Assembly: GCA_002928495.1 (NCBI GenBank)
Contig: PERF01000014.1
Coordinates: 1 to 36,335, forward strand
Direction of reading: 5' to 3'
Length of the DNA: 36,335 nt
DNA from: Methylobacter sp.
GTDB lineage: Bacteria; Pseudomonadota; Gammaproteobacteria; Methylococcales; Methylomonadaceae
Position numbers and translations under genes: made by a program. The notes beneath the pieces are model-generated. The model did not search any database, was not told the DNA's origin, and saw only the letters and a program-made list of their open reading frames with translations. Positions 34,373-36,335 of the stretch are shown one piece after another. The number at the start of each line of letters is the position of its first letter. Position 1 is the first letter of the stretch.

Positions 34373-35419
34373 ATGACGTTGCGTGTTGGGATAGCCGGCT
34401 TGGGAAGAATTGGCCGCGGATTATTGAGAACGAATTACACACAAGCTAAAGCAGGCCGGTTTGATATTTGCGTTGTTTGCGATGTCATGCCGGTTGAGCA
34501 TGTGGCGTATTTGATCGCCAATGACAGTACCTACGGCAATCCGCCGTTTTCTGTCGATTGCACTCAGGACGAGCTCGTTATAAACGGAAAAAAAATCCGT
34601 TATCTGCAAGTCGGCAGGCGGCGCAACCCTGTTGACGGCGCCGATTTAAATGTACTCAGGCATTTGTCGTTGGATGTATTCGTCGATGCGACCGGAACTG
34701 CCGCATTGGCTGATCTTCAGCGCTACATCGAACAAAACGCAGCACCGAAAGTGGTTTGTACGTCCAATATCGGTGGTGCCGATATTAGTCTGGTTTACGG
34801 GGTTAATCATAGGGATTACGATCCTGCCCGCCATCATATTATTACTGCCAGCACCTGCACCGGTAATGCCATGGTGCCGGTTGCCCATATTCTAGAACGC
34901 CATTTCGGTATTAATTTTGCCAGAATTATCACCATACATCCGGCTTTAGCCGACCAGCGGGTCTTGGACGGCTACCATGCCACTGCTCAATTGGGACGGT
35001 CTTATATGGCATCGGTCATCCCGGTGCCGACCAACGTAGCCAAATCGACTGCTTTGGTGCTTCCGGAGCTGGAAGGTAAGTTGGAGTCGTTGTCCTACCG
35101 GGTTCCCACCGCTATTGTGTCGATACTGGATGTCTCCGCCAGCCTTAAAACCTCGACATCGCGCGAGGAATGCGTCGCCTTGTTCGAAGAATATGCCCAA
35201 AATCAATTTAAAGGCATTATCCAGTGCGAATACGGGGCCTGGGGACAAGAGCGAGCCAGTATCGATTTTTCCGGCTCGGAATATTCGGCCATTCTCTTGA
35301 TGAAGCACATTGTGGTGAACAGCGGCACACAACTGGGCTTGAGTATCATGCATGACAACGAACAAGCCTATTGTTGCAGGGCTTTGGACGTTCTAAATCT
35401 CATTAATCAAAGCAACTAA
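34373..35419 (+). CDS. Divergent glyceraldehyde-3-phosphate dehydrogenase family enzyme
   Basis: A 348-residue NAD(P)-dependent dehydrogenase. It opens with GIAGLGRIGRGLLR, the dinucleotide-binding loop. The catalytic cysteine is C162 in TASTCTGNAMVPV; the family form is ASCTTNCLAPV, so the Cys-Thr and Asn are kept but the second Cys and a Thr are changed. H189 (IITIHPALADQ) fits the catalytic histidine. The end RVPTAIVSILDVSA is family-like. The usual W-Y-D-N-E end is replaced by LGLSIMHDNEQAYC. It could be a GAPDH, an erythrose-4-P dehydrogenase or a relative acting on another phosphosugar. No glycolytic neighbours are present. Full length, no sign of damage. Confidence 0.75.
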   Translation: MTLRVGIAGLGRIGRGLLRTNYTQAKAGRFDICVVCDVMPVEHVAYLIANDSTYGNPPFSVDCTQDELVINGKKIRYLQVGRRRNPVDGADLNVLRHLSLDVFVDATGTAALADLQRYIEQNAAPKVVCTSNIGGADISLVYGVNHRDYDPARHHIITASTCTGNAMVPVAHILERHFGINFARIITIHPALADQRVLDGYHATAQLGRSYMASVIPVPTNVAKSTALVLPELEGKLESLSYRVPTAIVSILDVSASLKTSTSREECVALFEEYAQNQFKGIIQCEYGAWGQERASIDFSGSEYSAILLMKHIVVNSGTQLGLSIMHDNEQAYCCRALDVLNLINQSN

Positions 35420-35636: not shown

Positions 35637-35664
35637 TGTAAGGATTTTCACGCAGCAACGACTA
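35637..35664 (+). promoter_or_regulatory. Candidate ECF-sigma-type promoter of the bufferin operon
   Basis: TGTAAG at 35637-35642 and CGACTA at 35659-35664 are separated by 16 bases. This resembles the TGTAAC-N16-CGTC layout of many extracytoplasmic-function sigma promoters; bufferin operons in other bacteria are known to be under ECF (SigF-type) control. Transcription would start near 35670. No sigma or anti-sigma gene is in the window, so this is inference from pattern and spacing. Confidence 0.35.
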
Positions 35665-35677
35665 ATTAGTTAATTCG

Positions 35678-35810
35678 GCAGGTAATTGCCTGCATGACCT
35701 GACATAAGCCGCATCAGGAATTTTTGCGGCTTGTGGCGCCTTGGCGCAAACGCTAGACCTTCCTGATGAAAAGGAAGTTTGCCGATGTCGGACAGGAAGT
35801 CCGCCTGCAA
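35678..35810 (+). ncRNA. Structured 5' leader upstream of bufA2 (candidate cis-regulatory RNA)
   Basis: Many helices crowd this stretch: GCAGG/CCTGC near 35679-35694; AAGCCGCA with TGCGGCTT (35706-35713, 35725-35732); GCAAAC with GTTTGC (35746-35751, 35777-35782) around CTTCC/GGAAG; and CGGAC/GTCCG (35789-35803). CATCAGGAA at 35712-35720 is perfectly complementary over 9 bases to TTCCTGATG at 35760-35768, which would make a pseudoknot or compete with the hairpins. A second CCTGC at 35804-35808 can also pair with the first GCAGG. I recognise no named riboswitch. The rest of 35420-35850 holds no gene. Confidence 0.4.
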
Positions 35811-35850
35811 GCAATTCACATTATTAAATTAACCACATAGGAAAATAATT

Positions 35851-36111
35851 ATGAAATCAACCAACACATCCGGATTATTATTAGCTACTGCTGTTGCCAC
35901 TATGTTTGTTGCTGCCCCTGTTATGGCGGAAAAGCATGCAGGCGCCAAAGAAGCCAAAGTTCATTGCAGCGGCATAAACGAATGCAAAGGCCATTCTGAG
36001 TGCAAAACTGCTTCAAACGCTTGCAAAGGCCAAAACGAATGCAAAGGCAAAGGCATCGTCGCTACTACTGCTGAAGAATGTGAAGCCAAAGGCGGCAAAA
36101 TCGAAAAATAA
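35851..36111 (+). CDS. bufA2: Bufferin-type copper metallophore precursor, BufA2 family
   Basis: An 86-residue exported peptide. A signal peptide ends at PVMA (residue 26). The mature part has six cysteines (39, 45, 51, 58, 64, 77) with repeated spacing, in units such as [10 protein letters not shown] and [13 protein letters not shown]. This matches BufA2-type bufferins, ribosomally made peptides whose cysteines are changed to thiooxazoles by an MNIO enzyme so that they bind copper in the periplasm. AGGAAA precedes the ATG. The maturase gene follows after a hairpin terminator. Which cysteines are modified here is unknown. Confidence 0.85.
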
Positions 36112-36133: not shown

Positions 36134-36160
36134 AGAGGGGCGGTTTTTCCGCCCCTTTCT
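36134..36160 (+). terminator. Strong hairpin terminator between bufA2 and bufB
   Basis: GGGGCGG at 36137-36143 pairs with CCGCCCC at 36149-36155 around a TTTTT loop; the stem is lengthened by three weaker pairs, and TTTCT follows. It lies within the operon, 22 bases before the bufB start, so it is expected to lower maturase transcription relative to the precursor. Confidence 0.75.
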
Positions 36161-36182: not shown

Positions 36183-36335
36183 ATGTCTGTGACTGAGAAC
36201 CTTCCCTTTTTAGGTTATGGCTTAGGCCTTAGAAAAGATCATTATCTGACCATTATTGAGGAAAAGCCCGCTATCGATTGGTTTGAAATTATTACCGAAA
36301 ACTATCTGGTCGAAGGCGGTAAGCCATTGTATTAT
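36183..36335 (+). CDS. bufB: MNIO family bufferin maturase BufB, 5' part (runs off the window)
   Basis: Only the first 51 codons are present. They read GYGLGLRKDHYLTIIEE, then DWFEIITENYL, then GGKPLYY, the start of the DUF692/MNIO family, whose members use two or three iron atoms to oxidise cysteines of a precursor peptide. The Glu and Asn of the EIITEN segment include known metal ligands. AGAGG precedes the ATG at good spacing. The rest, and any bufC partner, lie beyond the end. Confidence 0.9.
   Translation, partial: MSVTENLPFLGYGLGLRKDHYLTIIEEKPAIDWFEIITENYLVEGGKPLYY

Follow-up and report, generated by a model that had tools for sequence, protein, structure and literature searches.

The bufferin locus

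The window, the whole 36,335-nt stretch of Methylobacter sp. DNA analyzed here, ends in an operon that pairs a bufferin precursor gene with the gene for an MNIO enzyme. Bufferins are peptides that chelate copper and were described only recently. The draft genome from which the window comes is 77% complete. The features at this end of the window, all on the + strand, are as follows.

35637 to 35664, + strand: ECF-type promoter, TGTAAGGA-N14-CGACTA, with a predicted transcription start near 35671
35678 to 35693, + strand: hairpin P1, local pairing of GCAGGT with TGCCTGC in predicted folds; differs among relatives
35703 to 35735, + strand: hairpin P2, loop TCAGGAATTTT with GGA at 35717 to 35719; first candidate CsrA-type site
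35736 to 35747, + strand: hairpin P3, GCGC-CTTG-GCGC; seen in the fold, stem covarying in relatives
35760 to 35776, + strand: hairpin P4, TTCCT-GATGAAA-AGGAA; seen in the fold, covarying stem
35777 to 35812, + strand: hairpin P5, apex GGAC-AGGAA-GTCC, with GGA at 35795 to 35797 within CAGGAAG; main candidate CsrA-type site
35837 to 35845, + strand: Shine-Dalgarno region ATAGGAAAA, with a third GGA at 35840 to 35842, 45 nt beyond the GGA of P5
35851 to 36111, + strand: bufA2-like bufferin precursor gene; product with six conserved Cys residues and a signal-peptide-like N terminus
36183 to 36335, + strand: MNIO enzyme gene, bufB (PF05114, E value of 4.4e-9), running off the end of the window

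Orthologs of bufA2 are present in the same family and more widely in the order, and in all orthologs with a folded leader, a relative of the MNIO gene follows bufA2. Upstream of the leader and co-oriented with it lies a glyceraldehyde-3-phosphate dehydrogenase-like gene (positions 34373 to 35419; PF02800 and PF00044). The interval between bufA2 and the MNIO gene contains a GC-rich hairpin at 36136 to 36156, AGGGGCGG-TTTTT-CCGCCCCT, followed by a T-containing tail, which could lessen read-through from the precursor to the enzyme gene.

A conserved folded leader precedes bufA2

Positions 35671 to 35850 are best explained as the structured 5' leader of a bufA2-bufB mRNA transcribed from the ECF-type promoter. 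The original prediction of a structured leader of about 180 nt was borne out both by folding, in which the full 214 nt from the promoter to the start codon were more stable than dinucleotide shuffles (z of -2.1) and the leader core still more so (z of -3.2), and by a covariance search with leaders of bufA2 homologs, the comparison by which that prediction was to be judged. The first covariance model (R1) drew on four bufA2 leaders of one genus and excluded the window. It recovered two further paralogous leaders (E values of about 5e-13) and the leader of L151, which belongs to a different taxonomic family (E value of 7e-5). In the window, R1 matched positions 35699 to 35853 with an E value of 3.5e-4 in 63 kb, a score due in part to the A/T-rich tail and the Shine-Dalgarno sequence; the same site was the top match in its own genome (E value of 0.014).

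In a joint alignment, standard pairs filled 91.8% of the pair cells and 11 of 24 pairs showed changes on both sides, which none of 500 shuffles matched, although a fit of the alignment to the model biases these counts toward structure. When the window and L151 were each folded independently as single sequences, P2, P3, P4, and P5 also appeared in order. Judged from the alignment, P2 to P5 are kept by compensatory changes, always ahead of bufA2 and an MNIO gene, and on this comparative evidence, the leader is a genuine folded RNA that evolution has conserved. The leader of L087 has the promoter and P5 in common with the others and fits the model weakly, and the bufA2 genes of L152, L153, and L154 have no folded leader. 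L093 (G166:C23:9110-9361) is a bufA2-like copy with in-frame stops that is apparently decayed and likewise has no folded leader.

A second model (R2) included both the window and L151 in its seed, so that R1 is the only independent test for these two leaders. R2 was run on 311 genomes of the order, on 369 genomes sampled from the class, and on 80 more distant bufA2-like loci, and nowhere did the fold turn up in another genomic context. The next match in the order scored 25.7 bits, in comparison with 89.5 bits, and the weak matches elsewhere (17 to 26 bits) were taken as noise because of the wide gap to those of at least 89.5 bits. An independent small RNA gene was considered and rejected, since every strong match lies directly before bufA2. 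The leader had been described as an undescribed element with no known riboswitch core, which agrees with the lack of any Rfam match at either gathering or relaxed thresholds. Comparison at the plain DNA level yielded nothing in plasmids and, within the family, no more than short, marginal matches to three other genomes. A covariance model is now available for this structured RNA outside Rfam.

The alternative helices are disfavored

The leader had also been proposed to act as a switch between mutually exclusive helices. The letters on which this proposal drew are present: CATCAGGAA (35712 to 35720) is the exact reverse complement of TTCCTGATG (35760 to 35768), the 5' side of P4 serving as one arm of this 9-base complement, and GCAGG at 35678 to 35682 has CCTGC partners at 35689 to 35693 and at 35804 to 35808. 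The helices themselves fared poorly. A nonlocal complement of at least 9 bases occurs in 5.5% of dinucleotide-shuffled leaders, and the 9-base pairing has an ensemble probability of about 1e-4 and, when imposed, is 6.0 kcal/mol less favorable than the local hairpins. The pairing of GCAGG with CCTGC has a probability of 0.73 for the local partner and 0.013 for the distal one. Eight orthologous leaders were examined, and all lack the 9-base complement. The Shine-Dalgarno sequence lies outside both alternative helices. With the pairing disfavored and not conserved, no intrinsic terminator found on the + strand of the leader, and the Shine-Dalgarno sequence left free, the switch as described was rejected.

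Transcription attenuation was rejected as well, because the + strand of the leader has no terminator. A 24-codon open reading frame at 35766 to 35840 was considered and rejected as a leader peptide; it has no evident ribosome site and, by eye, no conserved counterpart in relatives.

GGA is retained in two exposed loops

The stems vary across the leaders while GGA stays in the apex of P2 and in the loop of P5. The GGA of P2 is found at a matching place, 132 to 140 nt before the start codon, in seven of nine leaders and is lost in L106; that of P5 is kept 47 to 56 nt before the start codon, also in seven of nine, and is lost in L089. In the window, the ensemble probability of being unpaired is at least 0.89 for the GGA of P2 and at least 0.97 for that of P5, whereas the leader's two remaining GGAs ahead of the Shine-Dalgarno sequence are buried in stems. 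Summed over the nine leaders, 10 GGAs lie in hairpin loops, compared to 1.3 ± 1.2 expected (0 of 200 shuffles), an excess that was tested after the fact, since the idea came from these same leaders, and that does not count independent events, since the leaders are related and were judged to represent about five lineages. The total number of GGAs is unremarkable (29, compared to 23.7 in shuffles; 20 of 200). By minimum-energy fold, four of the nine leaders show both loops at the P2 and P5 positions, an arrangement whose frequency among shuffles does not exceed 0.3% for any of the leaders; the minimum-energy folds of L088 and L090 do not contain both loops.

Retention of GGA in both exposed loops makes a CsrA-type RNA-binding protein the candidate partner of the leader. 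Hairpin-rich 5' leaders can protect mRNAs, and these hairpins might do nothing more than stabilize an abundant transcript or leave the ribosome site accessible, without any dedicated regulator. The bufA2 genes that do without such a leader would fit this passive role; however, it leaves unexplained why GGA is retained in two loops at fixed places amid changing stems, and it is considered unlikely. Sensing of metal, peptide, or temperature had also been suggested, and nothing in the analysis points in that direction, the conserved element being GGA in two exposed loops. If P2 to P5 formed an aptamer for copper, for another metal, or for a metabolite and so altered bufA2 translation, the leader would be riboswitch-like or metal responsive, which would account for a conserved multihairpin fold dedicated to a single metal-related operon. 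The leader would then be a new ligand- or metal-responsive RNA class of bufferin operons, in which the two GGA loops would make up the core for sensing or protein docking instead of CsrA sites. Such a role is improbable: there is no Rfam match and no terminator, the alternative helix is unfavorable and not conserved, and strong conservation of unpaired letters outside the tail is essentially limited to the GGA loops, with no extended aptamer core.

CsrA as the candidate regulator

The CsrA-binding RNA CsrB carries the repeat CAGGA(U/A/C)G in hairpin loops, and the SELEX consensus for CsrA is RUACARGGAUGU (PMC7652899). Repression of glgC involves a CsrA dimer that spans a site in a hairpin loop and the Shine-Dalgarno sequence, and sites 10 to 63 nt apart can be bridged (PMC7652899). 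The genome from which the window comes contains a canonical csrA gene adjoining lysC (PF02599, E value of 3.4e-26), whose product has the RNA-binding residues L4 and R44. The P5 loop, CAGGAAG, fits the CsrB repeat, and the distance of 45 nt from its GGA at 35795 to that of the Shine-Dalgarno sequence at 35840 is inside the bridging range. A Shine-Dalgarno sequence that contains GGA is ordinary in itself. CsrA is favored because of the P5 loop sequence, the spacing to the Shine-Dalgarno GGA, the additional P2 loop, and the genomic csrA; loop GGAs above chance, a suitable spacing, and a csrA gene, as expected of a CsrA-regulated leader, were all found. Against this, L106 and L089 have each lost one of the loop GGAs, L087 fits poorly, and the count of candidate CsrA sites calls for caution, since the GGA motif is short and the leaders share ancestry.

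Fixed-sequence loops are typical docking sites, and the GGA loops might serve a different partner, either a small RNA with an anti-GGA stretch or an RNA-binding protein other than CsrA. In the window, TTCCTG could pair with either CAGGAA loop; however, this stretch is found in the window alone and not in its relatives, and the genome has CsrA, whose site fits with no further assumptions. A different partner is rated slightly less likely than a passive or a metal-responsive leader.

CsrA probably represses bufferin translation, a reading given a probability of about 0.6. In the proposed mechanism, the ECF-type promoter would transcribe a bufA2-bufB mRNA with the P2-to-P5 leader, in which P2 and P5 would expose their loop GGAs while a further GGA sits in the Shine-Dalgarno sequence. 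CsrA dimers would most likely bridge the P5 loop, as the anchor, and the Shine-Dalgarno sequence, with the P2 loop as an extra site. Bound CsrA would block ribosomes and so repress bufferin translation, and full bufferin output would be expected only when the ECF sigma factor is active and CsrA has been titrated away. The binding of CsrA, the repressive direction, and a signal behind the ECF factor are inferred, whereas the conservation of the promoter, of the P2-to-P5 fold, and of the exposed GGA loops and the presence of csrA were observed.

The leader resembles CsrA/RsmA-repressed leaders of the Escherichia coli glgC type (PMC7652899) in having a GGA in an upstream hairpin loop and another in the Shine-Dalgarno sequence at bridging distance, together with a further upstream loop site. 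It differs in preceding a gene for a copper-binding RiPP precursor, in its ECF-type promoter, and in a four-hairpin fold conserved across two families, with CsrA binding as a prediction. With the CsrB and RsmZ sponge RNAs, it shares CAGGA(U/A/C)G in hairpin loops; in contrast to them, it has only two such loops, is continuous with a coding sequence instead of being a separate small RNA, and has no Rfam match. An RsmZ-type antagonist scored above the cutoff in none of 31 genomes searched with a narrow Rfam model. In the literature searched, no link between CsrA and bufferin genes was reported. In Legionella, the activity of the GIG promoter was unchanged by deletion of letA, and csrA was named there only as a candidate (PMC5413113).

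The regulation of bufferins noted in the literature searched is confined to the sigma/anti-sigma genes of Buf1 clusters, with Buf2 clusters reported to lack such genes (PMC12452194). If the CsrA reading is correct, the leader would add a posttranscriptional layer to bufferin expression and tie copper defense to carbon and energy status. The mechanism would then be an already known one, that of a CsrA-repressed leader, in a leader RNA that is itself not in Rfam.

The promoter and the leader are separable

An ECF-like promoter had been predicted ahead of the leader, and genome and relatives both agree with it. In a pattern search, the promoter was the sole exact match genome-wide, with two-mismatch matches no commoner than in the control, and the same elements, equally spaced, stand before bufA2 in L087, L089, L106, L110, L151, and L154, which represent three families. 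The promoter is absent from four of the folded leaders (L088, L090, L091, and L105), and L154 has the promoter with no folded leader; the promoter and the leader are therefore regarded as separable modules that are inherited separately. The site resembles that of Caulobacter sigmaF, GTAACC-N16-CGAA (PMC3511200), in its GTAA...CGA architecture before a DUF2282/DUF692 (bufferin) operon and differs from it in reading GTAAGG-N15-CGAC(TA), with a spacing one base shorter.

Related loci show further arrangements. In L154 (G260, from another family), the ECF-like promoter before bufA2 reads TGTAAGAA-N14-CGACAA and is followed only by a short leader. In L110 (G010:C358, positions ~1380 to 1460), the ECF-like promoter is kept and a long palindrome, GTAGGGGCGAATTTATTCGCC...GGGCGAATGAATTCGCCCCTAC, interrupts the bufA2 leader, apparently as a repeat insertion in place of the hairpins. 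The genome from which the window comes also contains a second bufferin/DUF2282-like gene (L109:1360-1500; G000:C7, upstream of 5539). A sigma54-like promoter, TTGGCACCGGTTTTGC, lies upstream of this gene and differs from the ECF-like promoter of the bufA2 leader.
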